From assembly GCA_025736915.1 (NCBI GenBank), contig CP107049.1, positions 62,001 through 126,000 of the forward strand: a stretch of DNA of 64,000 bases, in the 5' to 3' direction. Below, in pieces: positions 45,016 through 61,988 of this stretch. A model generated the notes under the pieces. The model was given only the letters and a program-made list of their open reading frames with translations. It did not search any database and was not told the DNA's origin. The position numbers were made by a program, and so were the translations under genes. Each line of letters begins with the position of its first letter. Positions within the stretch are counted from its first letter, which is position 1. The stretch comes from Acinetobacter nosocomialis (GTDB lineage Bacteria; Pseudomonadota; Gammaproteobacteria; Pseudomonadales; Moraxellaceae).

Positions 45016-46179
45016 TTAAATACGCCCAACTTCTAAGTATGGAATCAGGTTTTTATCAAAATTTGGTCTTGGATCGCCCTCATAACTAATAAAACCATGC
45101 ATACCCGTTAAACGCTCACCTTTATAAAACTGATTTAACTGATAACGCGGGTCTTTATGGGAAAGCGTAAAACTCACCACACCAACGCCTTGTCGTTTTG
45201 ACTGGTTATAGGCATCTTCGAGCATTTTATGATGCAAAGCTAAATCTTCAGGATGGCACATAAGCGTATGCAATACATGGTACTGAATAGAGTCACCCAG
45301 TTTAGGCAAACGCATGCCTTTAGTAATTGGGGTTAGCAAGTTATAAACGGGTCTAAGCACAGCTATGGCCGAACTATAATTTAAAATCTTGGTTTGCTTA
45401 ATACTGTGCTGATCCCATAAACCAAACATGCCCACCAGTTTTTCGCCCTTAAAGTAAAGTGAAAAGTCAGATAGTTTCATCCCTGAAAAGTACTGATGAC
45501 CTTGAGCAAGTTCTTCAAAGTTATAGGCAGGTATAAAGTTGTAAAACTCGGCCATATCGGTAATAAACTGATTCATGGCTGGTACATGTTGGGCTTCAGC
45601 TATACAGGTACGAATCTCTTGAATATCACTTTGCTGAGAAGTCTGCTTTAGAAAAGCCGTGATTTTTCGTTTTGCGCCTGTACTCGTCAGGCTGAGTGTC
45701 TCTATAAGTCCTTCATCATAATAATCGGGCATTCCCGTTTTACCCGTTTGTATAGCGGCACGTGCGGCATGGTTATCATCAAAAATAATCATTTGGCTAA
45801 AGTTCGGTGCGTGCATGGTCTGTTTTACATGCTTGGCTAATACCTTCACTAGTGATTTACCCCGATAGTTATGATCTACGCGCAAGTCACCAGCATATCG
45901 CAAGTTTTGAACACTCCGATCGACATAACAAGGACGATAACCATTGCTATAACAAGCGAGCTTCTTTTGACTCTCGGTGTCTTCAATTACAACATGCAAT
46001 TTATGCCGATAGACAATGTCAGACGCTTTAAAATAACTCGGTTCACGCTGAAAACTAATTTGTATGCCTTTGGTGGTCATGGGCACCGCAATTAAGTCTC
46101 GTAAAGCCTCATCATCTGCCAAAGTTGCTTCACGGGTAATCAGGGTATTTTCTGCGAGTGGTGTATTTGTTTTATTCAT
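45016..46179 (-). CDS. Tandem-GNAT acyltransferase, last gene of the GH3-export operon
   Basis: 387 residues, about twice a GNAT domain. The first half has a motif-A-like DLRVDHNYRGKSLVKVLAKHV after ITREATLADDEALRDLI. The second half (FYNFIPAYNFEELAQG, FSLYFKGEKLVGMFGLWDQHS, FTLSHKDPRYQLNQFYKGERL) looks like a diverged second copy. It is a probable acyl-CoA-dependent transferase. The start overlaps the TolC-like gene stop by 8 bp. As the last gene of the operon it would modify or tailor the exported product (inference). Confidence 0.75.
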   Translation of the reverse strand: MNKTNTPLAENTLITREATLADDEALRDLIAVPMTTKGIQISFQREPSYFKASDIVYRHKLHVVIEDTESQKKLACYSNGYRPCYVDRSVQNLRYAGDLRVDHNYRGKSLVKVLAKHVKQTMHAPNFSQMIIFDDNHAARAAIQTGKTGMPDYYDEGLIETLSLTSTGAKRKITAFLKQTSQQSDIQEIRTCIAEAQHVPAMNQFITDMAEFYNFIPAYNFEELAQGHQYFSGMKLSDFSLYFKGEKLVGMFGLWDQHSIKQTKILNYSSAIAVLRPVYNLLTPITKGMRLPKLGDSIQYHVLHTLMCHPEDLALHHKMLEDAYNQSKRQGVGVVSFTLSHKDPRYQLNQFYKGERLTGMHGFISYEGDPRPNFDKNLIPYLEVGRI

Positions 46180-47500
46180 TATTCACCTGTTGTACGGTCT
46201 GCATAGGAACCAAACTGTTTAAACGTCCCATTTGGTCGAGTAACTGATAGACAAACACTACTTCGTCTTGGTCATTTACGGTTTTTTGGGTTTGTACATC
46301 GAGTAGCTTCTGCTCGGTATTAAGCAAATCAAAAGTGGTTTTGGTGCCGACATCAAACTCTTTACGTGTATAGACAAAGGCAATAGACGCTGCCTCTATG
46401 GCATTTGCCAATGCGTCTTTATTTTGTCGGATGGTTTGAAGCTGTGCATAGGTGGTACGGGTACGTTTATTTAAGTCCAGTTCAAGACTTCGTATTTTCT
46501 GATGAGCCAAATCGATATCAGCCTGCGCTTTTTTGACATTGGCGCGATTTAAGCCATCGTCATAGAGCGGTACATTGAGCTGTAACCCGACCATATAGTT
46601 GTTACTTTCAGAACCAATATAACTCGCTTCATCCTGTTTTCCAGCACGGCTGGTCAGCATAACTGTTGGCCAGAGTTCCCGTTTAGTTAAAGCATATTGT
46701 TTCTCTGCGGCTTGCATTTCATATTTAGCGCGCATTAAAGCTGGATGATTTTTGGTTTGAGCCAAAATTTCATCTAACCCATTAGGAATAGCAGGTAGTT
46801 TCTTAATTGCAGCAAGGTTTTCAGGTGTTGTACCGGTTACTTGATAAAACTGTGCTTCGCTTACGGTCAAATTAGACTGCGCCTGTGTAATATCGGCTTG
46901 ACCTTGTGCAACTTGTGCCAAAACCTGAGCCAAGTCTGCACGAGTAATCATGCCGACATCAAAACGGCGCTTTGACTCATATAAAGACCGTTGCAGGTTC
47001 GCCATAGTCTTTTGTCTGAGTTCTAAAATGGCTTTCTTTTTTAATACGTCGGTATAGACCATGACCGTATTTAAAATGGTTTCCGAGCGTTGATCTGACA
47101 AGCCTTGGTGTTGGGCAGAAAGCTGACTTTCGGCAATGTCTACCCCCAAGCGATGTCGCCCAGAGGTATAAATCGGATAGTCTGCCTGCAATTGCAAACT
47201 TCGGCCTTTACGGTTTCCTTCAGTTGGAAACATGACTTTTGGTGGCGTATCTATTCTTTCATAGTCAAGCTGCCCAACTAAATTGACTTTGAGTCCATCA
47301 CGCTGTTTAGCCTGTTCAAGCATAGCGGTAGACTGGTTTACGCTTAAACGGCTGACTTCAAGCTGACTTTCATGTCTTAAACTAGCAGACAAAGCCTCGT
47401 CTAAAGTCATGGCATGTGTATTCGACACAACCAACACGCCTAAATACAAGGCGTGTCGAAGTGTTAAAAATCGAGTATTAAATAACTTCATCCCTTTCAT
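46172..47500 (-). CDS. TolC-family outer-membrane channel
   Basis: 442 residues with a signal peptide (about residues 1-30, ending NTHAMTLDEALSASL). It has the duplicated TolC-fold repeats: NHPALMRAKYEMQAAEKQYALTKRELWPTVMLTSRAG and GLQLNVPLYDDGLNRANVKKAQADIDLAHQKI. Long coiled coils follow, then VGTKTTFDLLNTEQKLLDVQTQKT, the second-repeat signature. It would complete a tripartite exporter with the EmrA/EmrB pair of the same operon. It overlaps the GH3 gene by 4 bp. Confidence 0.93.
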   Translation of the reverse strand: MKGMKLFNTRFLTLRHALYLGVLVVSNTHAMTLDEALSASLRHESQLEVSRLSVNQSTAMLEQAKQRDGLKVNLVGQLDYERIDTPPKVMFPTEGNRKGRSLQLQADYPIYTSGRHRLGVDIAESQLSAQHQGLSDQRSETILNTVMVYTDVLKKKAILELRQKTMANLQRSLYESKRRFDVGMITRADLAQVLAQVAQGQADITQAQSNLTVSEAQFYQVTGTTPENLAAIKKLPAIPNGLDEILAQTKNHPALMRAKYEMQAAEKQYALTKRELWPTVMLTSRAGKQDEASYIGSESNNYMVGLQLNVPLYDDGLNRANVKKAQADIDLAHQKIRSLELDLNKRTRTTYAQLQTIRQNKDALANAIEAASIAFVYTRKEFDVGTKTTFDLLNTEQKLLDVQTQKTVNDQDEVVFVYQLLDQMGRLNSLVPMQTVQQVNNE

Positions 47501-49083
47501 AGTTGTTCCAAACTATTGAGGGTGACTTTTTTAAGTGGCTCAGGTTTGATATTGCCTTCGATAATCCCATCAAACATGACCAGTTGCTTATACGCATTCC
47601 AGCCGTTATTGGCTTGTCGAATTTGAGGCTGGTCGAGCTGCCCCAAGTTTCGTGCAAGTTCATAATGGAAGTTTTGGCGTAAAATACTGTCGATATATTC
47701 ATTGCTAATACTGTGATGAATTTCACCTTCAAAAAGCACGCAATAAAATGGTTTAACCTGTTGTTGGGTATCAATCGCCAGTAAGGAAATCGCTTTCGAT
47801 TCCGTTTCATTTAGCTGTGACAACAACTGTTGAGCGGTTTCAGGTGCAAGTTTCTCACCAACCAGATCTACACCAAAACGGCGACCTTGGAACTCAAAAC
47901 ACGGGATTTGCTCTAAAAAACCAGTGACTCGTAAACAGTCATCTAGACAGTAACGAAGCAATCCGTTACCAGAAGTAATGAGTGGGCTCACCACATCACC
48001 TTGTTTAAGCTGCCATGAAGGAACGATTTGGCCTTGTTTCTCACCCTCTAAGTATTCAAACTCATAGAAATGACTTTGGTAGGCCAATGGGTATTGGTTG
48101 TTATAGGGAATGGTCACTACACCTTCCGTTGCCCATAACCCTTTGCCTTCAAACTGAACACTGGGTAATTTCTCTTTTAATTTTTCTGCCCAAGCTTTTG
48201 AACCTGCGGTATCCCAACTCGACACTAAACTTAACTTTGGCCAAAGTTTTTTAAAGTCGATCTGTGCGCCGTTTGAACTTGCAATTAATGCTTGAGCACT
48301 TTCAGGGCTATGCGGTGCGGTCACTTCTTTTAGTGAAGCCTGACGATTGCCCCATTTACCGCTGTTAAGCACCTCTATCACGTCTTGTTGTAGTAACTCC
48401 AAACGCTCAAGCAATTGCAGCGCAAAAGTTGGACTCCATACCGAAATCATGGCTAAATTACGGTTTGCGACCAAATAACAAATGGTGGCAAACAGTGCAT
48501 CGTCCGCATTGGCTGCAAAGGCAACGTTACTTGGAACGGCTTGGGTAAACTTAGACAGTATGCGTTTACCTACGCCAAGTAGCGCACTGTCATCATTTAA
48601 GTTTTTATCTTTTAAAACTTCACGCTGACTTTCAGGCAACCATGACACTGACCAGTAATGTGTACCCGAACTCAACTGTGGGCATTTACGGTATAAGCTT
48701 GCCATCCACGGCGCAATCGCATGGTCAAGCTCATCTAAAAACAGCTTGGTATATGGAATAAACTTGATTTGTTCACTCGAACCACTTGTCGGCTGAAAAC
48801 GAACCAACTTACTACTAGAGAGTGAAAGCTTTTGTTCACGGTAACGCTGAATGTCTTCTCGCCATGCGCTATAGCGAGTCGCAGGAAAGGCTTTTACAAA
48901 CTGCTCATAGTTTTGAACCTTTTTATCTTTGGCAAAGGTAGAAGTCTGTAATATCGAATGCAAAATTTGACGTTGTGTGGTTTCTAAAGCATTAAACTGT
49001 TTTTGGAAATTACGGTCAGATGCATCACACCATTTTTTTAAAATAAGATGCGAGCCAAGCGTTAGCCATTCATTAGTTTTCAT
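47497..49083 (-). CDS. GH3-family acyl-acid amido synthetase
   Basis: 528 residues, ANL adenylating superfamily, GH3 branch (the plant enzymes that conjugate auxin or jasmonate to amino acids). Signatures: the ATP loop FQPTSGSSEQIKFIPYT, GLWATEGVVTIPYN, LLRYCLDDCLRVTGFLEQIPCFEFQGRR and VDLVGEKLAPE. The enzyme activates a carboxylic acid as acyl-AMP and passes it to an amine, giving an amide. Bacterial members are little studied. It is sandwiched with 4-bp overlaps between a GNAT-like gene and a TolC-like gene, which implies a biosynthetic role. The substrates are unknown. Confidence 0.87.
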   Translation of the reverse strand: MKTNEWLTLGSHLILKKWCDASDRNFQKQFNALETTQRQILHSILQTSTFAKDKKVQNYEQFVKAFPATRYSAWREDIQRYREQKLSLSSSKLVRFQPTSGSSEQIKFIPYTKLFLDELDHAIAPWMASLYRKCPQLSSGTHYWSVSWLPESQREVLKDKNLNDDSALLGVGKRILSKFTQAVPSNVAFAANADDALFATICYLVANRNLAMISVWSPTFALQLLERLELLQQDVIEVLNSGKWGNRQASLKEVTAPHSPESAQALIASSNGAQIDFKKLWPKLSLVSSWDTAGSKAWAEKLKEKLPSVQFEGKGLWATEGVVTIPYNNQYPLAYQSHFYEFEYLEGEKQGQIVPSWQLKQGDVVSPLITSGNGLLRYCLDDCLRVTGFLEQIPCFEFQGRRFGVDLVGEKLAPETAQQLLSQLNETESKAISLLAIDTQQQVKPFYCVLFEGEIHHSISNEYIDSILRQNFHYELARNLGQLDQPQIRQANNGWNAYKQLVMFDGIIEGNIKPEPLKKVTLNSLEQL

Positions 49084-49901
49084 TGGATGGCCTCTCTACG
49101 TTTTGTTTTATGGGTTACACAAGCTTCAAACTTTCCTTTACTGGTTGGCTTAGTCATGAGCTTAACTGGGAAACGGGCAATATCTTTCCAGCCCAGACGA
49201 CCTATACACGGCAGTTCTGTACCTGCTTTCCAAGTTGGATTTTTTTGTTCAAAGAAATGAATGTTAGGATTCTTTTCTCGCATTTCGGCGGTAATGGGTG
49301 CAACTTCGCCTTTTAGTGGCTGATAGTCATCACCAAAGTTAAGTAAGCCTGCTTCACGGTCGTAATATTCACCAAAGAATTTCTCACAGTAGTGCTCAAC
49401 CACTTCCGAAAGGTGTTGGTTTTCATCTTTAATGTTTGGGTAGTACACATAGTAATTATTGGCAAGTAATAGATAGGTCTTATAGCCCTTAGAAATGAGT
49501 AACCAATAGAGTTCGTTAAAAGGATATTTGATGCGAAGCTTAATCATGAGTTTGAGCATGGTACTTTGTAAGCTACGCGTGCCCCAGAACTTCTTCAAAA
49601 TAACCGTATCACCGCTAAAGAGCACGGTGTAGTCTTTACCGTTTAAGTAGAAGTGCTGAACCACTACAGTCGAGAAACCGACAATCTCATCTGTCTCAGA
49701 GTCAAAAATTAAGATCGCACCGCTTTTATTTTTAAAATCGTCTACAAAAATAGAAAATCTGGTATTTTCATAATACTGTTCGTAAATGGAATACATCACT
49801 TTTAGTCGATCAGTATCAATTTGCTCTCTTTCAAAATATTGCCCATAAGTTGTGTTTTTCAGGTTCAATTTTGAAATCAGTTTATATGTTGTATTAATCA
49901 T
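49080..49901 (-). CDS. GNAT-like protein of the GH3-export operon
   Basis: 273 residues. The pattern of an N-acyltransferase is visible though diverged: GAILIFDSETDEIVGFSTVVVQHFYLNGKDYTVLFSGDTVILKKFWGTRSLQSTMLKLMIKL fits GNAT strands beta2-beta5, with the cofactor loop KKFWGTRSLQS. The rest (YDREAGLLNFGDDYQP, NPNIHFFEQKNPTWKAGTELPCIGRLGW) is specific to this family. There is no signal peptide. It overlaps the GH3 gene by 4 bp, so coupling is likely. It could acylate an amine precursor; no more can be said. Confidence 0.65.
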   Translation of the reverse strand: MINTTYKLISKLNLKNTTYGQYFEREQIDTDRLKVMYSIYEQYYENTRFSIFVDDFKNKSGAILIFDSETDEIVGFSTVVVQHFYLNGKDYTVLFSGDTVILKKFWGTRSLQSTMLKLMIKLRIKYPFNELYWLLISKGYKTYLLLANNYYVYYPNIKDENQHLSEVVEHYCEKFFGEYYDREAGLLNFGDDYQPLKGEVAPITAEMREKNPNIHFFEQKNPTWKAGTELPCIGRLGWKDIARFPVKLMTKPTSKGKFEACVTHKTKRREAIQ

Positions 49902-49907
49902 AATACT

Positions 49908-50024
49908 TTAATCTCCCACATCCAGATCTGTGAGTTCCGCTCGCTCGTACGACGATGTTAGAAACTCGTATAAATGTTCTTTTTCTAAGAAGGGATACGT
50001 TTTGATATGCCCTATTGTTTTCAT
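49908..50024 (-). CDS. Candidate 38-codon small ORF between emrB and the GNAT-like gene
   Basis: It reads MKTIGHIKTYPFLEKEHL, then YEFLTSSYERAELTDLDVGD. It fills almost the whole 155-bp gap in an otherwise tightly packed operon and ends 6 bp before the next start. Its last codons contain the GGGAG that is the ribosome-binding site of the next gene, so it could couple translation. The peptide is acidic at its end and has no signal sequence. The Shine-Dalgarno is weak. It may be a leader, a precursor or chance. Confidence 0.4.
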   Translation of the reverse strand: MKTIGHIKTYPFLEKEHLYEFLTSSYERAELTDLDVGD

Positions 50025-50056
50025 TCTTTAAAAAGCTGTCTTTTACTGCTAAAAAT

Positions 50057-51604
50057 TTACATATTCATTTTCTTCCCCCTGTCCATAAAGATGGTTAAAA
50101 AGGCGGTCACAAACATGATGATTGCGAGCATGCGTAATAAATCATTAAAACTCGATGTCAGTGCCTGAAAATGAATGTCGCGGTAAATCACACTCAGCGC
50201 GATTTGCTGGGCATTTGCACCGACTTCTTGATATTGCGCCGTGAGCTGATCAAGCCTTTCTGTAAATATCCAGTTTTGCGGTGTCATCGCCTGATTAATT
50301 TGGGTGACATGCATGGCGGTCAGCCAGTCTAAGGATGAGTTAATAAGCGCCAGTCCAACCGCGCCGCCAATATTGCGCATGAGGTTATAAATACCGCTGG
50401 CATCGGCCACTTTACTGAGTGGCAAAGTGCTCATCGCCAAATGCGACACCACAATCAGGCAGATCATAAGACCAATACCACGGTAAATTTGCGGCCAGAA
50501 CATAAAGTCATAATCGCTGTGAATGCTGAGATGCGAGTTGAGCCATACACCAAAGCCAGCCAGAACCATTCCGACAAATACGGTTTTGCGGGTATCGAAG
50601 TTAGGAATAAGCCACGCAAGGAACGGCGCAAAACAGAACATGACAATACCTGTCACCATCATGACATGACCAATTTGGCTACTGTTCATTTCACGGACTT
50701 GCCCAAGAAACACGGGAATCATGTAACCCAAGCCATACAGCGCCATACCGATCACAAACGTTGTGATGGCACTTAAGGTAAAGTTTTTATTTTTAAATAC
50801 CGATAAATCGAGCAAAGGCTTAGGCTGGGTAAAACTTCGAGAGAAGAAAATCATGCCGCCTATCAGGCAGACCATAAAAGCAATACGAACGCCTGTGTCT
50901 GCAAGCCAGTCATGACGCGCGCCTTCATCGAGGAAATATTCAAGCCCACCCAAAAACATCGCCATACCGACCAGACTAAACCAGTCCATGCTTTTAATAA
51001 GTGAATAATTGGCACGGTCGATATTTGGGCCTGAGTAAATGACCGTGGCAATGATAATGCCCGGAATAATATTGATCAGGAACATCCAGTGCCATGAGAA
51101 GTTATTGGTGAGCCAACCTCCAATGGTGGGGCCAATCGCAGGCCCTAAAGTACTGATCATGCCAAACATGACCAAAGGCAATGAACGTTTTGGTTCGGGG
51201 AACAGTAAATACAACGCCGTCATGGAGGTCGGAATCATACCGCCGCCCATAAAGCCTTGAATGCCACGGAACACCAGTAAACTTTCCAAGTTCCACGACA
51301 AAGCACAAAGTAATGAACTCACCGTAAAACCAATTGCACACATGGTGTAATACACCCGTGTCGAAAGCACCCGCGAGACAATACTCGACATTGGAATTGC
51401 AATAATTTCGGCAATTAAATAAACCGTTTGTACCCAAGTGACTTCATAACGACTTGCACTCATGCCAGCTTGAACTTCGTTTAGAGAACTCGCCACAATC
51501 TGAATATCAAGAATCGCCATGAAGTTGCCAAAAATCATGGCAGCAAAAATTGCCCATGCAGTTTTTGCAGGAAACCTCCACTCGGCTTCAACATGCTTAT
51601 TCAT
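50057..51604 (-). CDS. emrB: EmrB-type MFS exporter (DHA2, 14 membrane segments)
   Basis: 515 residues. The DHA2 drug:proton antiporter family shows LDIQIVASSLNEVQAGMSASRYEVTWVQTVYLIAEIIAIP in the first segments. The motif-C-like GMISTLGPAIGPTIGGWL and the Gly-rich GFMGGGMIPTSMTALYLLF are present. It moves compounds from the cytoplasm or inner leaflet, coupled to protons, through EmrA to a TolC channel. EmrAB in A. baumannii has been linked to colistin tolerance. The start lies 24 bp after the EmrA stop. A dedicated TolC-like gene is in the same operon. Confidence 0.93.
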   Translation of the reverse strand: MNKHVEAEWRFPAKTAWAIFAAMIFGNFMAILDIQIVASSLNEVQAGMSASRYEVTWVQTVYLIAEIIAIPMSSIVSRVLSTRVYYTMCAIGFTVSSLLCALSWNLESLLVFRGIQGFMGGGMIPTSMTALYLLFPEPKRSLPLVMFGMISTLGPAIGPTIGGWLTNNFSWHWMFLINIIPGIIIATVIYSGPNIDRANYSLIKSMDWFSLVGMAMFLGGLEYFLDEGARHDWLADTGVRIAFMVCLIGGMIFFSRSFTQPKPLLDLSVFKNKNFTLSAITTFVIGMALYGLGYMIPVFLGQVREMNSSQIGHVMMVTGIVMFCFAPFLAWLIPNFDTRKTVFVGMVLAGFGVWLNSHLSIHSDYDFMFWPQIYRGIGLMICLIVVSHLAMSTLPLSKVADASGIYNLMRNIGGAVGLALINSSLDWLTAMHVTQINQAMTPQNWIFTERLDQLTAQYQEVGANAQQIALSVIYRDIHFQALTSSFNDLLRMLAIIMFVTAFLTIFMDRGKKMNM

Positions 51605-51628
51605 TTTCTTATTACCTAAAATTTTTTA

Positions 51629-52696
51629 TTAAGTTCTTAGGTCAACGGTGGCACTCACCGACATTCCAGGTTTTATCAAATCAATATGCGGGCTTGAATC
51701 TATGGCAATACGTACAGGTATACGCTGTACAACTTTGTTAAAGTTGCCAGTGGCATTGTCTGGTGGCATCAGTGAGAAAGTTGCGCCTGAAGCTGGTGAA
51801 AAACTCTCAATTTTTCCGGTATAGGTGAGGCTCGGATAAGCATCAAGTTTTAACTTCACCTTCTGACCAACATGCATTTTTTCAATTTGGGTTTCTTTGA
51901 AGTTGGCTTGTACATACAAACTATTTTCAGGAATGATTGCCATCAAACGAGTTTGCGGAGAAACACGTGAACCTTTTTGAATTGCAAGGCTACCGATCTT
52001 ACCGCTCACAGGACTCACCACTTTTGAAGAAGCCAGATCGACCTGATACAGGTTTAAATTTGCATTGGCACTTTGGATATCTGCTAAAAGCTGCGCTCGA
52101 CTCGCTTGTAAACTCCCCAACTGGGCTTCTGCTGCATTTACGGCGGCTTGCGCTTTGCTGAGCTGTGCTTGAGCTGTTAAATATTGAGACTGAACACCCT
52201 CAAAGTTTTGTCGGGTAATCACGCCATCTTTTAATAAGTCTTGATAACGCTCAAACTCTTTTCTTAAGCGAGTTAAATCGGCTTGTGCTGCCACTACACC
52301 ACTATTTGCTTCTGTAATTGATGACTTAGCAGACTTTTCATTTTGTTGTTGTACACCGAGTGCGGCTTCTTTTAAGCTGACCACAGAACGGGCTTGATCA
52401 TAACGAGCTTGATAATCGCGGTGATCTAATACCGCTAAAGTTTCCCCTTTTTTTACCACCTGATTATCATTAATTAATAACTCCATCACTTCGCCTGAAA
52501 TCTTTGGCATAACCCAAGTTACATCGGCTTGCACATAAGCATTATCAGTAGATTGATAAAATCGGTATACAAAAAAATAATATACGATACCAGCAACTAA
52601 AAATAACAACAGGACACTAAAAACACCCCATGTTATTTTCTTTCGACTTTGGAAATTAGTATCAGTTTCTAGCTGAGCTACGTTATCCATATTCAT
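51629..52696 (-). CDS. emrA: EmrA-type periplasmic adaptor (HlyD family)
   Basis: 355 residues. A single membrane anchor near residues 20-45 (WGVFSVLLLFLVAGIVYYFFVY) is followed by the family motif YQSTDNAYVQADVTWVMPKISGEVMELLI, a lipoyl half-domain. A long coiled-coil hairpin spans about residues 95-210, and a second lipoyl half follows (VVSPVSGKIGSLAIQKGSRVSP). The beta-barrel part is YVQANFKETQIEKM. It is the first gene of the operon. AGCGGA precedes the ATG. Its promoter must lie in the 676-bp AT-rich region upstream. Confidence 0.93.
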   Translation of the reverse strand: MNMDNVAQLETDTNFQSRKKITWGVFSVLLLFLVAGIVYYFFVYRFYQSTDNAYVQADVTWVMPKISGEVMELLINDNQVVKKGETLAVLDHRDYQARYDQARSVVSLKEAALGVQQQNEKSAKSSITEANSGVVAAQADLTRLRKEFERYQDLLKDGVITRQNFEGVQSQYLTAQAQLSKAQAAVNAAEAQLGSLQASRAQLLADIQSANANLNLYQVDLASSKVVSPVSGKIGSLAIQKGSRVSPQTRLMAIIPENSLYVQANFKETQIEKMHVGQKVKLKLDAYPSLTYTGKIESFSPASGATFSLMPPDNATGNFNKVVQRIPVRIAIDSSPHIDLIKPGMSVSATVDLRT

Positions 52697-53372
52697 TCCG
52701 CTTATTTGTAATATTCGATTTTTTATTTAAGCCAATAAAATTATTGGTTTCTTATTTACGTAACTTTTCACTTGGTTTTATTCAATGAATCGTGACAGCG
52801 TAAAATTTGGTGCAAATTATGGTTCTGAAGTGAATTAAATATCATTGACCTCTTTGCCATATATTTTTTCTATTTATGTCAATAAATCATGTTATATAAA
52901 CTATATTTAAAAAATATTTAATTCTAATTACGATAGATTTCTCTTAATAAATCGATTTAAAAATCAAACATAAATATTTGTTAATTAAAAAATTACTAAA
53001 ATTATTTATATTTTATTAAAACCTCCAAATCGGGTAATTTATTGCAGAAATGTTAACAATAAGTTTTATTGTGTAATATTTAAGTATTATTAATTAAAAT
53101 AACATGCAATTTAAAAATGAGTTAACAATCAAAATTCTCATACTTATACACATAGAATATATATAATTTATAAATATTATATTTTTTAAAAACAACAATA
53201 AGAAATCTAACAAAATCATTAAAGATGATAAACGGTAATTTTTAATAATTAAGTCACTCTACCGAGTAAAATGACTTAAATTTTTCCAGATAAAATAAAA
53301 GCAGAAAACAATCTCAAAGCCATTATTTAAAAGCAAAAACAAACCTTTAAAAATAGTAGTTTAAGTGATTTT
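52697..53372. other. Long AT-rich upstream region of the GH3-export operon
   Basis: 676 bp of very AT-rich DNA with no ORF. A TTGACA box on the minus strand (52877-52882) has no good -10 at the right distance. I found no convincing operator. Both the emrA promoter and the 3' end of the amidase transcript fall here. Confidence 0.4.
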
Positions 53373-54833
53373 TTATTGATTTAAACCTTTGAAAATTTTT
53401 TCTAAAGTTATACCAATAGCAAGTATTTCACTGTCTTGATGAGCTAAGCCATCTATTTCTAAACCCACTGGCAGTTTTGATTTCGTACCCATTCCAATGG
53501 GTAAACTCATTCCAGGTATTCCTATATTACTGCCGGGGTCTGTATTTCGCATGAGGGTCTGGAAAGTTTCAATTGAATAGACTTCTTCATTTGCTAGTGG
53601 TGCCACAATTGGTGATGTTGGGAATAATAAAGCATGTAAATTATGCGCTTTAAATGTGTTTTGATAGAGTTCAAGCAATTGTGGCCGAGCTTCACTAATC
53701 GCTTTTTCATACAAAGGTAAAACAGGAACAAGTTGACCATTCGGATCTAGAGTTAACTCAGGAAGAATATTCAGTTTAAAAATTGCCTGTACATCTGGAC
53801 TTGAAATCTGATCAACTACAGTCTCTATAGTCAAATTTACATGATGATCTTTCAAATATTGAATCAGGTCATATTTGCCTTCATATATAGCCACAGGAAA
53901 TGAAATAGCTTGATTGAGTTGTTCTAAATTTGGCATATCGACAGAAATAATTTCGACTCCTGCACTTTTTAAAAGCTCAAGCGCAATATGAGCCTGTTCA
54001 TGAACGTCTTCGTCTAAATGATTCCAAAAGTATGAATTGATACCGAGCCGAATTTGATGAGGATCTAATGGTTCTTTTCTTGGTTCTTGAGTAATAAGCT
54101 CATCAATTAAAATAACATCAGATACGGTATGTGCAATAGGTCCAGCGGTATCTCGAGTATGTGAAATTGGGGTAATACCTTCTTGTGAATATCGTCCTAC
54201 TGTAGGACGAAAACCCACACAACCATTTAAGGCACTTGGCAGTCGAATAGAAGCACCTGTGTCTGTACCCATAGCAATCAGAACCATACCCGCTGCAACA
54301 GCTACCGCACTACCCGAAGAAGACCCACCAGCAATGTGTAACGGGTTTACTGCATTTCGTGTACCCACAACACCTTCTATATGCATGGCAGTATTATAAC
54401 CTGTTACTCCAAAGGCTAATTCGTGCATATTGGCTTTACCAATAATGATTGCACCTTGATCAATGAGTTTTTGAATAACGGGCGCAGAAGTTTGAGTTCT
54501 AAATTGAGCTAAAGCTGGCGTACCTGCACTATTTGGAAAACCTGCAACATGAATATTATCTTTAACCGCAATTAAAATACCCATCAAAGCTGGACACGGT
54601 TTTCCACTCAGTAGATATTTATCCCAATATTGAGCTTGTTGAATTGCTGAAGCCTTATCTGTGCTAATAAATGCATTTAAAGATTGCTGTTTTTCAATAG
54701 TATCGAAGTAATGATGCACAAGCTCTTCACAAGATACTTTTCTTTCATGAATGAGTTTAGTAAGGATATCTACTGAAGCATTTGATAGATCAAGTGATTC
54801 GATCCAATTATTTTTTTCATTTGTATTTAACAT
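53373..54833 (-). CDS. Amidase-signature enzyme, indoleacetamide hydrolase-like
   Basis: 486 residues. The amidase-signature triad is Lys in GILIAVKDNIHVAG (about residue 92) and the Ser-cisSer pair in HIAGGSSSGSAVAVAAG (about residues 168-180). GTDTGASIRLPSALNGCVGFRP follows. The C-terminal SNIGIPGMSLPIGMG and LPVGLEIDG are typical of the indoleacetamide/mandelamide hydrolase branch. It hydrolyses a carboxamide to the acid and ammonia. It lies upstream of the GH3-export operon on the same strand, but 676 bp away, and downstream of the LuxR gene. The substrate is not determinable. Confidence 0.85.
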   Translation of the reverse strand: MLNTNEKNNWIESLDLSNASVDILTKLIHERKVSCEELVHHYFDTIEKQQSLNAFISTDKASAIQQAQYWDKYLLSGKPCPALMGILIAVKDNIHVAGFPNSAGTPALAQFRTQTSAPVIQKLIDQGAIIIGKANMHELAFGVTGYNTAMHIEGVVGTRNAVNPLHIAGGSSSGSAVAVAAGMVLIAMGTDTGASIRLPSALNGCVGFRPTVGRYSQEGITPISHTRDTAGPIAHTVSDVILIDELITQEPRKEPLDPHQIRLGINSYFWNHLDEDVHEQAHIALELLKSAGVEIISVDMPNLEQLNQAISFPVAIYEGKYDLIQYLKDHHVNLTIETVVDQISSPDVQAIFKLNILPELTLDPNGQLVPVLPLYEKAISEARPQLLELYQNTFKAHNLHALLFPTSPIVAPLANEEVYSIETFQTLMRNTDPGSNIGIPGMSLPIGMGTKSKLPVGLEIDGLAHQDSEILAIGITLEKIFKGLNQ

Positions 54834-54925: not shown

Positions 54926-55645
54926 TTAATATCGAATGAGCAAGGCCATTTCAGTGCGATTATTGCAACCGATTTTTCTCATAGAATTGTTCAAATGAGT
55001 TCTTAATGTAGTAAAGCTAATATCCAGTAAATTGGCCACATCTTTATCACTTAAACCTTTAGATACCAAGCGAACCACTTCTTGTTCACGCGAAGTCAAA
55101 CCGTATTGGCTTGATAAATCAGTGGGTAAGGCTTGAGTAAAATAAGGTTCAAGCAGATTTAATATTCTTTTTTCACGCTCACCAAACATGTCAGCGTCTT
55201 TTGCACGCCAAATACGTAAATCGCCAATATCTATACCATTTCGGACAAAATAAATATTTATGCCGTGATACAAACCATAGGCTCTTAAAAACTCATTGTA
55301 ATAGGGTGTTTTTTTCAGGTCTGCGAGAGGCATGACTTCATTTACAAAGGTTGATTTTTGACGTTTGCGAAGCTGTGCCGTAATCGGATCATCAAATTGC
55401 CAAACACACTCATAGTCCTTCATGGCTTTTGGGTCGATTTTCCATATAACGCCTTCTCTCGATAAGTTATTGGTTGAGTCCCAAATGTAAGATGCAGCGA
55501 AATCAGCCCGCAATAAAATGGCAATATCTGCAAGGATATTTTCACGTAAATTATATTGCCCTTTTCCTGAGCCAAGTTTCCATAATATTTCGGAGAACAA
55601 TGTAAACTCAGATGGACTGAAATCCTTTTCTAAAAGTGCAGTCAT
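54926..55645 (-). CDS. LuxR-family transcriptional regulator with GAF-like sensor
   Basis: 239 residues. The N-terminal half (about 1-170) looks like a GAF/autoinducer-type sensing domain (ILADIAILLRADFAASYIWDS, WRAKDADMFGEREKRILNLLEPYF). The C-terminal LuxR helix-turn-helix is YGLTSREQEVVRLVSKGLSDKDVANLLDISFTTLRTHLNNSMRKIGCNNRTEMALLIR. It lies 92 bp upstream of the amidase gene, same strand, so it is a likely regulator of the amidase and possibly of the GH3-export operon (inference). Confidence 0.87.
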   Translation of the reverse strand: MTALLEKDFSPSEFTLFSEILWKLGSGKGQYNLRENILADIAILLRADFAASYIWDSTNNLSREGVIWKIDPKAMKDYECVWQFDDPITAQLRKRQKSTFVNEVMPLADLKKTPYYNEFLRAYGLYHGINIYFVRNGIDIGDLRIWRAKDADMFGEREKRILNLLEPYFTQALPTDLSSQYGLTSREQEVVRLVSKGLSDKDVANLLDISFTTLRTHLNNSMRKIGCNNRTEMALLIRY

Positions 55646-57303: not shown

Positions 57304-58698
57304 TTAAGCCTCAGTCGCTAAATACCAGTTTTTCCAAGAACTGGTTCCTCTCGTTTCAATCGGCACGGTTGGAATGAGTTTTTCTTTTAATATTTCAGTT
57401 TGTTCAACCGCTTTTGCAAGTCTCGCTTTGACTGAATGAATACATTCACGGTCACCAAATTCACAGCGGTCTAAAGTTGTACCACCACAAGGCCCATTAG
57501 CTAAACCTTTTGGACACGTTTCAGGGCAAATATATAAAGTATCGCTTAGCCGACACTGACCACAGCTTTCACAGCCCACTAAGCTGTGTTTACTCAAAAC
57601 TTCGGTTTTAAGTAAGACTTTGGCGACCAAAGTATTTTCCCAAAAAGACGCTTTAAAAATAAACCGTCCAATACCTTTAGCAATTTTTGATCCAAACATT
57701 GCTTCATGCATAACATGTAGCTGGCGATATTTAATTAATTGTTTAGACGTTGGCTGACGCGAAAACCGAGCAATTTCAGGCGAAAACTCTTTGCCTGTAG
57801 TGACTTGCCAAAGTGAATTCCAAAGCTCTTCTAAAGCTTTAAGCTCCAGATGTCTGTATTGCTCGACGTAGCTTTCAAGCAGCATTTGCTCCTCTGGCTT
57901 ATGACAAGCAGATAAGTGAATTCCTGCATACCCTAAGTGTTTACATATCAAAATCTGTAAAGCACAGCGCAAATAAACACGGTCTGTATGCCCTGCCTGT
58001 TTTTCCTCTGCCAAGACTTTTAGCATGTGTGGAGTAATCACAATACCCGCAACTTTATGCTTTACCATGTAGTTAGCACGGCCTAAAGTCAGTGGCATGA
58101 CGCAAGCCAGTATTTGCTGCGAATAATTGTTCTTGGTTAAAAATGATTTGGCTTGTTTTAAGGCTTCAATGTCATAGCCCAATTGGGTAATGATAAAGTC
58201 AGCGCCTGCTTTAATTTTCTTATGTAGTTTTAAATACTGTGCATCACGCTCAGCTTCGACATATTTAAATGGGTTAAAAGCAACCCCAATACGGAACCCG
58301 CCATGTTGCTTGGCAGCCATTACGGCGTTTACCGACTCTAGGTATCTACTACGAGGCTGCCCATCTCGACCATTATGGTGTTCTTTGAGTTTATCGCCTG
58401 TAAGCAATAACAAGTTTTGAATATTGGCTGTTTGAGCTTGTTCTAAAAATTGCTCAAAGTCTTGTATGTCTCGGGCCTTACCTGAAAAGTGTAAGACTTT
58501 ATCGATTGAGTCTGGGTAACTTTTGCTGGCTTCAAGCGGCGCAATATCATGATCTGAATGTACTCGATCTGCCAATGTCATTGCAGCCGGATATCCTGCA
58601 AACTCATGTTTCACAGGATAAATTTCATGCAGTGAAGTGAGATATTCCACCAACACAAAAAACTGGTTTTGCTGGAAGCAGGGAGAAACGTGTGACAT
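57304..58698 (-). CDS. MetF-like protein with C-terminal MetV-like zinc domain
   Basis: 464 residues from ATG 58698 (MSHVSPCFQQNQFFVLVEYL); a longer form starting at TTG 58716 is unlikely. The first 290 residues follow the methylenetetrahydrofolate reductase barrel: AAMTLADRVHSDHDIAPLEASK, LLLLTGDKLKEHH, FRIGVAFNPFKYVEAERDAQYLKLHKKIKAGADFIITQLGYD. The C-terminal part has a cysteine cluster (GCESCGQCRLSDTLYICPETCPKGLANGPCGG ... DRCEFGDRECIH) like the MetV/MTHFR_C domain found with MetF in acetogens. It may be a variant one-carbon enzyme. The gene stands alone. Confidence 0.78.
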   Translation of the reverse strand: MSHVSPCFQQNQFFVLVEYLTSLHEIYPVKHEFAGYPAAMTLADRVHSDHDIAPLEASKSYPDSIDKVLHFSGKARDIQDFEQFLEQAQTANIQNLLLLTGDKLKEHHNGRDGQPRSRYLESVNAVMAAKQHGGFRIGVAFNPFKYVEAERDAQYLKLHKKIKAGADFIITQLGYDIEALKQAKSFLTKNNYSQQILACVMPLTLGRANYMVKHKVAGIVITPHMLKVLAEEKQAGHTDRVYLRCALQILICKHLGYAGIHLSACHKPEEQMLLESYVEQYRHLELKALEELWNSLWQVTTGKEFSPEIARFSRQPTSKQLIKYRQLHVMHEAMFGSKIAKGIGRFIFKASFWENTLVAKVLLKTEVLSKHSLVGCESCGQCRLSDTLYICPETCPKGLANGPCGGTTLDRCEFGDRECIHSVKARLAKAVEQTEILKEKLIPTVPIETRGTSSWKNWYLATEA

Positions 58699-58770
58699 AG
58701 GCAAAGTGCTAATCAAAACATGACATCAATCATAAGCGCGGCATTATAAATCAAAGTGCATCAAGATGCG

Positions 58771-59538
58771 CTAGTCAGAAAGCTCATTGTTTTGCTTATC
58801 TTCACCCTCTTTATTCCTGGGTAATTCGAGTGAGCGAGGAAATATAAAATCGAAAGAATCGAGTGCATAGCGGTAAAGCTGAGCTGGTCGTTTGCCTACA
58901 ATTTTACTTTGATTGGTTTCTTCAACTGCACCCGCTTCTATCATACGGCGTCTAAACGCTTTTTTATCTAAGGATTGCCCAAGAATAATTTCATAAATGG
59001 TTTGCAGCTCAGTCAGCGTAAATAACTCGGGCATAAGACTGGCTGGTAATGCGGTATAACGAGTTTTATTGGTGAGACGCTCTAAAGCTAAGCTGAGCAA
59101 TTCATTATGATCAAACGCCAATGCTAAGTCTTGTGCTTTTGTTACAGGCACCCATTCACTGTACTCAGCCAAAGTTTGATGTTGATAAGCATTAAAATCA
59201 ATTAATGCAAAATACAAAATCGTCACGGCCCAACCACGTGGGTCACGTTTAGCATTGCCCACAGAGGCAACTTGTTCCAAGTAAGGCGAAGCGATTCCTG
59301 TTTTTTCGACCAGTTTACGATAAGCCGTAGCCATCAAGTCTTGATCATGCTTTAAATCGGCAAAACCACCCGGTAAAGCCCATTGGCCTTTGGCTGGAAA
59401 GTTGGGGCGCTTAATGAGTAATACCTGCAACTGACCATTAAATACCGAGAAAATAGCCATATCGACCGTGAGTAAAGGTGCGTCATAATCTCGGCGATCA
59501 TAACTGGCAAGGAATTCTTGTTCAGTTTGAATAGTCAC
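58771..59538 (-). CDS. nrtR: NrtR-type regulator: inactive Nudix domain plus winged helix
   Basis: 255 residues from GTG 59538, with GAGAGG six bases upstream; a 14-codon longer start lacks support. The N-terminal Nudix domain has LTVDMAIFSVFNGQLQVLLIKRPNFPAKGQWALPGGFADLKHDQDL. The catalytic box is degraded (RKLVEKTGI where REL and EExG are usual), so hydrolysis is unlikely. The C-terminal winged helix is LFTLTELQTIYEIILGQSLDKKAFRRRMIEAGAVEET with GKRPAQLYRY, typical of NrtR. NrtR represses NAD biosynthesis genes and is released by ADP-ribose. It is the last gene of the prs-nadV-nrtR operon and so would regulate itself. Confidence 0.88.
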   Translation of the reverse strand: MTIQTEQEFLASYDRRDYDAPLLTVDMAIFSVFNGQLQVLLIKRPNFPAKGQWALPGGFADLKHDQDLMATAYRKLVEKTGIASPYLEQVASVGNAKRDPRGWAVTILYFALIDFNAYQHQTLAEYSEWVPVTKAQDLALAFDHNELLSLALERLTNKTRYTALPASLMPELFTLTELQTIYEIILGQSLDKKAFRRRMIEAGAVEETNQSKIVGKRPAQLYRYALDSFDFIFPRSLELPRNKEGEDKQNNELSD

Positions 59539-59598
59539 GTTCAGCCTCTCAATAAAAATGATGAGCCGATACTCATGCAACAGCTCATCTAAACTCAG

Positions 59599-61092
59599 TT
59601 ATGCGATGGATAAACGCTCGCGAATTTGATCCAAAGTACACTCATATTGAAGTTTACCATTTTCAAAGACTGTTTTAAGTGCTCCGCCTTGTTCTTGTTC
59701 GGCTGTTTGCTCATCAAACAAGATAAAACCATTTTCACTTTCTTCGATGCGTAAAAGACCTTTCGCAGATTTTTTCACACCTGAGTCTGTAATTGGGTCT
59801 TTAAACAGCTCGCGTCCTACACCATTTACTTGCCCCCAAGTCGCTTTCACGGCAAATCCAAAAGTATCGCGAGTTAAGTAGTTATAGGTAAAACTGCCTA
59901 TACCAAACACCAAGTTGTTTGAAGCAAAACCTTTGGCTTCTAACCCTTCTAAAATACGCTGTGCACGGTCTAGGGTAATTGAGTCACCGTAAATTAAACC
60001 GACACGTTCATTAAGCACTTTATAGCCTTGGTCTGTGGTTGTACCGCCAAACACTTCCCATAAACATTCGACCGCACCTTTGTAGGCTGGGCTGCCGACT
60101 TCGGCGTCTGGGTCGCCGCAAATAATTTTAACTGGGTCACCAGAGTCTGGACGGAAAACCAATTTAGCTAAACCTAAAGCATTCGGTTGTCTTGCCAGAA
60201 TTTCAGGTTTTAAAGCCACCGTAAATTCTGTAATCACTCGCCAAAAGTCCCAAGTATCAGACACAATACTGACAACACCCGACGGATAAAGCTCACAAAT
60301 TAAACGCTTAAATGTTTCTAGCTCACTGTCTTCAGTACCCATACACATCACACTATGTTCGGTCGCTGGTACAGATACCCCAATCACACCTGTGGCATTG
60401 TAATATTCTTCTGCGTAGTCAATTGAAGCAACAGAGTCTGTTCCAATAAAACTGGTTAAGTGGCCTACACCAGATTGCGCCGCATCATAAATTCCGCTCA
60501 TGCCACGGCTACTAAAATCGTGTCCTTGCACAGGTACAAAATCGAGTGGTGCGCCAGTTTTTAAAGCATATTGAGTTAATAAGCGTTTGTACTCATAGGC
60601 AATTGTGGCCGTAGTACAGCTTTTCCAAAGCTCAGCACTTAATACAGTTTCAATATAGTTAGTTAACCAAAAGAAACGTGGGTCAGTGTTAATCACGGTG
60701 AGCACAGGTACACGCATATTGACGCGGCTGCCTTCTGGCAAGGCTTTAATGCGTAATGGTAAATATCCCAAGTCGTGTAACGCTTCAATGTGATCAACCG
60801 GTACTGCGCCTTCACCTAGTGAACTATCCATACGGCGTTTATATGTAGCCACTACTTTGTCTTTAGGTTGTTTAAAAAAGCCTTCATTCCATGTATCGAT
60901 TAAAAAATGTTTAATAAAACCCTGAAGACCAAAGAACACAACTTTATCGTCGAAGTCAGGCAACATTTTAGCGAGTCGAGATGAACGCGGCGTAAAGTTT
61001 GCGTACACGTACTCTGTACCTGTCGGATACTGACGTCTGTGATCGGCTTTATAAAAATCGATAGCGTTTAATGGATTAAGTTTAATAGTCAT
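59599..61092 (-). CDS. nadV: Nicotinamide phosphoribosyltransferase
   Basis: 497 residues, the NadV/NAMPT length. It joins nicotinamide to PRPP to give NMN in the one-step NAD salvage route. Signatures: FYKADHRRQYPTGTEYVYANFTPR at the start, DFVPVQGHDFSSRGMSG and SFIGTDSVASIDYAEEYY in the catalytic core, GVSVPATEHSVMCMG and VSIVSDTWDFWRVI, and VFRPDSGDPVKII at the PRPP site. It lies 11 bp downstream of the PRPP synthetase-like gene, which supplies its co-substrate. Confidence 0.95.
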   Translation of the reverse strand: MTIKLNPLNAIDFYKADHRRQYPTGTEYVYANFTPRSSRLAKMLPDFDDKVVFFGLQGFIKHFLIDTWNEGFFKQPKDKVVATYKRRMDSSLGEGAVPVDHIEALHDLGYLPLRIKALPEGSRVNMRVPVLTVINTDPRFFWLTNYIETVLSAELWKSCTTATIAYEYKRLLTQYALKTGAPLDFVPVQGHDFSSRGMSGIYDAAQSGVGHLTSFIGTDSVASIDYAEEYYNATGVIGVSVPATEHSVMCMGTEDSELETFKRLICELYPSGVVSIVSDTWDFWRVITEFTVALKPEILARQPNALGLAKLVFRPDSGDPVKIICGDPDAEVGSPAYKGAVECLWEVFGGTTTDQGYKVLNERVGLIYGDSITLDRAQRILEGLEAKGFASNNLVFGIGSFTYNYLTRDTFGFAVKATWGQVNGVGRELFKDPITDSGVKKSAKGLLRIEESENGFILFDEQTAEQEQGGALKTVFENGKLQYECTLDQIRERLSIA

Positions 61093-61103
61093 CTTTGTTC
61101 TCT

Positions 61104-61988
61104 TTATTTTGCTGCAAAAGCAATTACTGAAATTTTGTCTGATGGTTGTTGTGGAAAGCTGTCCGAGGTAAACATTTGGTCAAGCAGTCCATCAAAAACC
61201 TCTATTCCTTTACTGAAAATACCGTGGGTCACATATAGAACGACCTTATGGCAATTGAGACGACGGAGTTCTTTGGCAATACCAATAAAGGTTGCACCGC
61301 CGTCACAAATATCATCGGTAATGACCGCTGTTAGGCCTGATAAATCAGTCGCATGTACATGCGTACCTAAAATTTTGCCAGTCACTGGATCACGTTTTTT
61401 ATCACACTGAACAATAGTGATGGGTTGTTTGCGCTCAAGATTAAAAGCATCTGCAACCATTTGTGTACGTGCTTTCGCACCTTTGTCTGGGCAAATCAGT
61501 ACTGTTTTTTCATCTTTTAACAGTGTGCTTAGCGCTTCACTCTTTTTGATGATGTCGACTGAACTCACATTTACCACTTCGCTAAAAGAAGTATTGGCAG
61601 TGAGCAAAGCTGTTGTTACTTCACTATGGCAGTCCCAAACAGTGATTTTGCCTTGTTTGCCCGCTTTTTTGTCTGAGTTGATGTTAAGTAACTTGGTCAT
61701 CACATCGAGTGAAAATGCTTGGCCGACTGCACAAATACGGTCCTGACGTGCATATGGAAAATATGGAATTTCTAAGTCAACGGTTAAGCCTTGAGTCAGC
61801 AATATATTTTCAAGTAGTAAATAGTCCATCACATCGTGACTTGAGGTCATTTGCGCGCGGACCAATACGTTGCCAGATAATGAACCTAACGTTGTTTCAT
61901 CAATTTGAACATGACGCTCGCCACCAGAAAACTGCGTGAATTTCACTGGAATTTCATTTCTTGCCGCATCTAAAAGCTGGATAGCCAT
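61104..61988 (-). CDS. prs: Ribose-phosphate pyrophosphokinase-like protein (NAD-salvage paralogue)
   Basis: 294 residues, shorter than housekeeping Prs (about 315). It makes PRPP from ribose-5-phosphate and ATP. DVMDYLLLENILLTQGLTVDLEIPYFPYARQD has the family motif YARQDR, PDKGAKARTQMVA is the second motif, and AVITDDICDGGATFIGIAKEL is the PRPP-binding loop. It is first in the operon with nadV, where it provides local PRPP for nicotinamide salvage. GAGG lies upstream of the ATG. This is a dedicated paralogue, not the primary prs. Confidence 0.9.
   Translation of the reverse strand: MAIQLLDAARNEIPVKFTQFSGGERHVQIDETTLGSLSGNVLVRAQMTSSHDVMDYLLLENILLTQGLTVDLEIPYFPYARQDRICAVGQAFSLDVMTKLLNINSDKKAGKQGKITVWDCHSEVTTALLTANTSFSEVVNVSSVDIIKKSEALSTLLKDEKTVLICPDKGAKARTQMVADAFNLERKQPITIVQCDKKRDPVTGKILGTHVHATDLSGLTAVITDDICDGGATFIGIAKELRRLNCHKVVLYVTHGIFSKGIEVFDGLLDQMFTSDSFPQQPSDKISVIAFAAK

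Follow-up and report, generated by a model that had tools for sequence, protein, structure and literature searches.

A GH3-GNAT enzyme triad carried with an EmrAB-TolC-type pump in Acinetobacter, a candidate pathway for an exported fatty-acyl amide

Work on the N-myristoyltransferase (NMT) fold has mostly concerned eukaryotes, in which the enzyme modifies proteins and is a drug target. Among bacterial enzymes, the GH3-like protein OlsH of Singulisphaera acidiphila (526 aa) makes N-acyl-ornithine, according to the available text of PMC12493201. In Acinetobacter baumannii, the EmrAB-like pump encoded by A1S_1772/1773 has been named AmfAB, with an operon stated to be without an outer-membrane gene. 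The available sections of the same report (PMC10812440) describe an AmfAB deletion with no pump-specific change of antibiotic minimum inhibitory concentrations (MICs) and with lowered uptake of 1-N-phenylnaphthylamine (NPN), delayed growth at pH 4.6, toxicity upon overproduction and a higher abundance of AmfAB in cells deficient in resistance-nodulation-division (RND) pumps; the Amf phenotypes were negated in RND-minus cells, and AdeK was proposed as the channel. GH3 is not mentioned in that text. Here we analyzed a window of 64,000 nucleotides of Acinetobacter nosocomialis (contig CP107049.1, positions 62,001 to 126,000), in which six genes, all on the minus strand within positions 45016-52696, follow one another in the order emrA, emrB, GNAT1, GH3, TolC and GNAT2. 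Our leading interpretation, held with modest confidence, is that the enzymes GNAT1, GH3 and GNAT2 (the triad) build a fatty-acyl amide, either an amino acid with an N-acyl group or a larger amide acylated twice, which would be exported by an EmrAB-TolC-type pump.

The coordinates, strand and gene order given in the original prediction, which was made from this DNA alone, were borne out by the sequence, and the overlaps of 4-8 bp that it reported are three overlaps joining four genes: GNAT1/GH3 (4 bp), GH3/TolC (4 bp) and TolC/GNAT2 (8 bp). The spacing is 24 bp between emrA and emrB and 155 bp between emrB and GNAT1. The first gene, emrA (51629..52696, 355 aa), encodes a periplasmic adaptor that passes the Pfam model HlyD_3 (67.5 bits versus a cut-off of 22.2) and has TIGR00998 as its best subfamily match, below the NCBIfam cut-off (272.5 versus 390.8). 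Its neighbor emrB (50057..51604, 515 aa) encodes an exporter of the major facilitator superfamily (MFS) that passes TIGR00711 (373 bits versus 230.2), and the TolC-family outer-membrane channel (46172..47500, 442 aa) passes the Pfam model OEP (159.1 bits versus 22) and has TIGR01844 as its best subfamily match, again below the NCBIfam cut-off (202.3 versus 225.15). The complete EmrAB-TolC exporter that had been claimed therefore stands at the subfamily level for EmrB only; because the EmrA and TolC subfamily models remain below their cut-offs, the pump is classed here as EmrAB-TolC-type and not as EmrAB-TolC itself.

To describe how the six genes are kept together, we surveyed 149 genomes of the genus Acinetobacter and found GH3 in 56 of them, at 57 places after split hits were joined (one genome has two). 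The surroundings of the 56 places other than our own were mapped by tblastn with the window proteins (E 1e-5, >30% of the query). All six genes are present in order at 40 of the 57 places, window included, and because of this frequency, the six-gene arrangement is more than chance. The type strain of Acinetobacter baylyi (L109) likewise carries all six. A further place (L037) is cut by a contig end and carries the four genes that fit. The original prediction had named scattering of GH3, the GNATs and TolC away from emrAB in related genomes as evidence against it, and in most GH3 carriers of the genus (the same 40 of 57) no such scattering is seen. At 12 places (L041-L052) the genes GNAT1-GH3-GNAT2 stand alone, with a GH3 about 49-54% identical and without any match to EmrA, EmrB or TolC at the above settings; in the two of these with open reading frames (ORFs) listed (L044 and L051), the triad lies between genes reading by eye as clpB and rlmL. 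The remaining four places (L053-L056) are reduced, rearranged or broken. Because EmrAB and TolC were found neither at these 12 of the 57 genus loci nor at the locus L112 described below, the triad is the unit of inheritance: the core is the three-enzyme module GNAT1-GH3-GNAT2, and the pump is accessory, joined in one Acinetobacter clade. The idea of a product-making set with its own pump is supported by the 40 places that keep all six genes and by the other pumps found beside the same enzymes elsewhere (below), whereas the pump itself turns out to be an add-on.

Lesions occur among the six-gene loci: L031 has a split GNAT1, L058 a split GNAT2, and an internal stop interrupts one GH3. The DNA that splits GNAT1 (L031/L144) and GNAT2 (L058/L079) amounts to about 1.1 and 0.8 kb, respectively, and may consist of insertion sequences. 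In Acinetobacter sp. KCTC 92772 the complete six-gene operon is present twice, and the two copies have diverged (L027/L096 and L036/L111).

A comparison of two loci bears on the relation between pump and enzymes. L110 (Acinetobacter sedimenti) and L112 (a Moraxellaceae metagenome-assembled genome, MAG) have common flanking families on both sides (F35-F41 and F42-F44). L110 carries all six genes. In L112, GNAT1-GH3-GNAT2 are present, and tblastn gave no match to EmrA, EmrB or TolC (E 1e-4, over a quarter of the query). The pump genes occupy two separate places in the operon, with TolC between two enzyme genes and apart from emrAB; the joint absence of EmrA, EmrB and TolC from L112 despite these separate positions therefore shows that TolC is tied to EmrAB and that the enzymes can stand without these three. 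In a GH3 tree of 61 rows, built by a quick method with long branches in its far group and with Shimodaira-Hasegawa-like approximate likelihood ratio test (SH-aLRT) support in place of bootstrap, L110 and L112 are sisters with an SH-aLRT of 100, and their pair groups with the other EmrAB loci at 99; because of this placement, the tree favors a single pump loss in L112 over two gains. Further, the exporter state requires 6 changes on this tree over the 56 rows with a known state. When the cut rows are treated as a separate group, the number is 11, compared with a shuffled mean of 30.6.

We next consider the triad beyond the genus. A GNAT1-profile scan of named genomes found 355 relatives, and the analysis covered the 80 best; these loci were picked by GNAT1 alone, many being Acinetobacter records from the genus survey, and GH3 and GNAT2 lie alongside GNAT1 in all 80. 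Carriers outside Acinetobacter among these best 80 of 355 include Alkanindiges, Agitococcus, Fluviicoccus, Alcanivorax and Aquabacterium. Exporters were sought in the fetched stretches by similarity to our own representatives (E 1e-20), a search that could miss other kinds of exporter: EmrB and TolC are present in 36 of the 80 loci, 14 carry an RND pump gene, 2 have only an RND-type adaptor, and none of these exporters is present in 28, four of which (L113, L123, L138 and L151) are cut by contig ends. RND identity in the 14 loci means similarity to family F5, and both of the two members run against Pfam match ACR_tran. Their companions include HlyD-type adaptors and an AraC-type regulator by Pfam; in L153 the RND genes have the opposite orientation. 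Two of three small acyltransferase-like companions have PapA- or condensation-like Pfam matches, below cut-off. Family F6 (L134, L136, L139, L141, L142, L147, L152, L153 and L154) is a small protein accompanying RND-linked triads, and its PapA-like similarity is weak, below the Pfam cut-off in L152 and without a match in L141. L139 is a Pedobacter-labelled MAG with a Moraxellaceae-type triad and an RND pump; its contig is likely mis-binned.

At greater distance, GNAT1 was found in 9 of 369 genomes of Gammaproteobacteria and in 7 of 398 genomes of the phylum, each count including that of the window. The 14 far loci hold the triad in nine cases (with GNAT2 facing the other way in L181), GNAT1 and GH3 in two and GNAT1 alone in three (L182; L186, at a contig end; and L194, a weak match). 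An RND pump is present in L189, and in L190 an EmrAB pair lies downstream of GNAT2. The L190 pair is 31-37% identical to that of the window, other EmrAB paralogues being about 26-35% identical, and its bit scores are somewhat higher; because L190 is placed apart from Acinetobacter in the tree, a separate pairing is tentatively favored over orthology. Seven far loci form a divergent group in the GH3 tree, and single representatives from this group or nearby match Pfam models for B12-binding plus radical-SAM, Rieske, fatty-acid desaturase, P450 and an RnfD/FG-GAP/UnbV combination. The loci L182-L188, L191 and L192 are distant GNAT1 or triad loci within larger clusters that likely represent a different natural-product pathway.

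The GH3 gene (47497..49083, 528 aa) encodes a predicted adenylating amide synthetase. Its product passes PF03321 (116.6 bits) and GH3_M (PF23571, 61 bits), both against a cut-off of 23.6, and reaches 19.1 bits, below the same cut-off, with GH3_C (positions 17-112 of 119 matched, E 0.0021); in a profile search, its best Protein Data Bank (PDB) matches are plant GH3 structures. Nucleotide motifs were checked against the motif list of PMC12493201 in an alignment of 14 sequences, drawn from outside the divergent far group. In motif I (T99-K107, TSGSSEQIK, 48763..48789), residues T99, S100, G101, S102 and K107 are invariant in 14/14; the equivalent of motif II (G315-E320, GLWATE, 48124..48141), which differs from the plant YGSSE, is invariant in 14/14, as are G374, R377, Y378 and D382 in the equivalent of motif III (G374-D383, G..RY..DD, 47935..47964). 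The proposal that GH3 makes an N-acyl amino acid finds a parallel in OlsH. The available main text of the OlsH paper makes no mention of Acinetobacter, GNAT, efflux, transporter or myristoyl.

GNAT2 (45016..46179, 387 aa) has sub-threshold Pfam matches only, the best being Acetyltransf_1 (19.4 versus 20.7). The structure model (pLDDT 92.6) has an N-myristoyltransferase-like tandem GNAT fold, so that the tandem GNAT first taken for a generic acetyltransferase pair models instead as an N-myristoyltransferase-like acyltransferase. A true NMT was rejected, as the sequence tests fail: GNAT2 has no Pfam NMT match, and a profile search found no NMT chain at E 1. We therefore keep to the wording that GNAT2 may work like an NMT. 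In the NMT mechanism, the C-terminal carboxylate is the catalytic base. Among the 80 loci, GNAT2 ends at an identical profile position in 74 of the 78 stop-terminated ORFs (in the window protein, the end is formed by residues 383-387, EVGRI, 45019..45033), and 44 of the 50 displayed rows are aligned through to the last residue; in contrast, the ends of GNAT1 and GH3 scatter over about 30 positions. A fixed C-terminus would suit a terminal carboxylate, that of Ile387, acting as the base. The entry 7q3a is MAB_4324 according to the available text of PMC10727445.

GNAT1 (49080..49901, 273 aa) has no Pfam match at E 0.1, and its predicted fold is that of a GNAT. Strictly conserved stretches mark the protein, namely the near-invariant LISKG[YF]KTYLLL (residues 133-149) and GTELPC with an invariant Cys (residues 227-232). 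The canonical GNAT CoA loop is [Q/R]xxGx[G/A]; GNAT1 lacks it and has W106-G107-x-R109 instead, with W and G in 74/74 sequences and R in 65/74 where G/A is expected. Because the canonical loop is absent, GNAT1 is kept as a GNAT fold and not as a proven acyl-CoA enzyme.

The pump has a literature of its own. The available text of PMC11784087 lists A1S_1769 as a 'tolC like subunit' under the Bae regulon and gives increases of 2.66 and 2.52 log2 on lgt and lnt depletion. The available text of the BaeSR papers PMC4498774 and PMC4101873 does not name A1S_1769, and the Bae-regulon label therefore comes from the table of PMC11784087 alone. PMC7667040, as far as its text is available, lists A1S_1772 as MFS and A1S_1773 as an 'RND family drug transporter', which we read as the adaptor. 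We infer that emrA corresponds to A1S_1773 (AmfA), emrB to A1S_1772 (AmfB), GH3 to A1S_1770, TolC to A1S_1769 and GNAT2 to A1S_1768. Because the order 1773, 1772, x, x, 1769 fits emrA, emrB, GNAT1, GH3, TolC, the pump is probably the published AmfAB, and the tolC-like A1S_1769, inside the operon, appears to be its missing outer-membrane gene. About 25 kb from the operon, a second pair of MFS exporter and adaptor (L165 5695-12773; G000:C1:133695-140773), probably AmfCD, adjoins genes reading by eye like tyrosinase and multicopper oxidase.

The statement that no described pathway has this gene set holds for the set as a whole, judged on one open-access library in which we found no description of the triad, and gives way for the EmrAB part, published as AmfAB if the above locus tags are right. 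In the available text of PMC5997985, an interaction network includes both an efflux pump gene and a gene called 'GH3 auxin-responsive promoter', neither of which is discussed there; the available text of PMC9162365, PMC4498774 and PMC4101873 does not mention the cluster.

Taken together, the leading interpretation of an exported fatty-acyl amide runs as follows. Like plant GH3s and bacterial OlsH, GH3 would activate a carboxylic acid, probably of the fatty or acyl kind, as acyl-AMP and join it to an amine; GNAT2, acting like an N-myristoyltransferase with its own C-terminal carboxylate as base, would transfer a long acyl chain from a thioester to an amine; GNAT1 would perform a further acyl transfer; and EmrA, EmrB and TolC would form a tripartite pump taking the amphiphilic product across both membranes. 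In its favor, the same triad is paired with exporters of different superfamilies (EmrB with TolC, and RND), and we also count for it the published properties of AmfAB, as given in the available text, namely unchanged MICs, toxic overproduction and greater abundance in RND-deficient cells. It is weakened by the lack of a known product, by the loci that carry no pump and by the weak assignment of GNAT1.

The alternative that survives best, although we regard it as unlikely, is that the product is an amino lipid retained in the membrane or envelope, as with OlsH for ornithine lipids, and that the pump deals with by-products or carries lipids to the outer membrane. The N-acyl-ornithine made by OlsH, the many triads without a pump gene nearby, the lowered NPN uptake of the AmfAB deletion and the rise of A1S_1769 upon depletion of outer-membrane lipoprotein maturation (PMC11784087) would all suit such a lipid. 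However, no family of alpha/beta hydrolases, to which OlsI belongs, was matched among the six genes or the two genes upstream (Pfam, E 0.1), TolC lies between two enzyme genes and overlaps them at both ends, and the triad is accompanied by pumps from two superfamilies.

Somewhat more doubtful is a detoxification operon, in which GH3 and the two acyltransferases would form conjugates of toxic acids or amines of external origin, and the pump would expel these conjugates. Partial views of three expression studies are consistent with it: A1S_1773 has a value of 2.04 in a bile-salt table (PMC5423435), A1S_1769 is in the Bae regulon list (PMC11784087) and A1S_1772 and A1S_1773 are up in a leuO mutant (PMC8543017). 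The fixed order of the three enzymes and the radical-SAM, Rieske or desaturase genes of far clusters look more like biosynthesis, and the AmfAB deletion, in the part of PMC10812440 available, brought no pump-specific MIC change.

Auxin conjugation enters through the genes upstream of emrA. An amidase (53373-54833, minus strand) and a LuxR-type regulator (54926-55645, minus strand) are present there in close relatives only, and both were for this reason excluded as members of the system; an amide hydrolase adjoining an amide synthase may merit attention. In such a scheme the amidase would make indole-3-acetate and GH3 would conjugate it to an amino acid, as in plants. The amidase passes the indoleacetamide hydrolase model (561.6 versus 532), and plant GH3 structures are the best PDB matches; yet the amidase stands 676 bp upstream, the GNATs have no role, and because the amidase is found in only 7 of the 56 fetched genus loci (L058-L060, L063, L064, L067 and L068), all close relatives, the auxin-like conjugate of the original prediction is weak and far less likely than a retained lipid or detoxification. 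Least probable of all, and already disfavored, is a general EmrAB drug pump beside unrelated metabolic genes by chance. EmrA relatives are common (9 matches in the window's own genome), but the order is kept at 40 of 57 loci, TolC lies inside the enzyme block and EmrA, EmrB and TolC are jointly absent in L112.

As for control regions, the 676 bp between emrA and the amidase (52697..53372) read as A+T-rich and likely promoter-bearing on the minus strand; a consensus scan gave promoter-like matches not above chance in the region it covered. The same scan found no minus-strand promoter- or terminator-like site in the 155-bp gap between emrB and GNAT1 (49902..50056). A 38-codon ORF in this gap (49906-50020) was tried as a peptide substrate and rejected, being present among the scanned loci only in the window and its near relatives L058 and L059; the gap is poorly conserved. 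Elsewhere in the window (57304-61988, minus strand), Pfam matches outline an NAD-salvage-like block with MTHFR, NrtR-type NUDIX regulator, NAPRTase/NAMPT and phosphoribosyltransferase genes.

More tentatively, and as a possibility we would not yet favor, the exported fatty-acyl amide may belong to an undescribed proteobacterial family of lipid-amide pathways, in which an NMT analogue with a catalytic C-terminal carboxylate and a GH3 ligase would make a doubly acylated amide, pumps (EmrAB-TolC or RND) would be swapped, distant members would work with B12 radical-SAM, Rieske and desaturase proteins, and the product would be the natural cargo of AmfAB in the Acinetobacter calcoaceticus-baumannii group. 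If so, an orphan pump of a major group of hospital pathogens would gain both a natural cargo and its missing outer-membrane partner, a new lipid-amide pathway would extend across several groups of Proteobacteria and an N-myristoyltransferase-like catalyst would be at work in bacteria.

Overall, the locus compares with known systems as follows. It shares with Escherichia coli EmrAB-TolC an adaptor, an EmrB-subfamily MFS pump and a TolC-family channel, and differs in that its pump genes are embedded in an enzyme operon and its EmrA and TolC models are below cut-off. The AmfAB paper states that the operon has no outer-membrane gene, whereas here TolC is the third gene after emrB. GNAT2 resembles the NMTs of animals, fungi and protozoa in predicted shape, although it is only 10-13% identical to them and its acceptor is likely a small molecule. 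Finally, OlsH has OlsI, an alpha/beta hydrolase, as its partner, and shares with the GH3 described here a similar length and the three nucleotide motifs; OlsH forms acyl amides with ATP according to the available text of PMC12493201, and by analogy the same is predicted for GH3.

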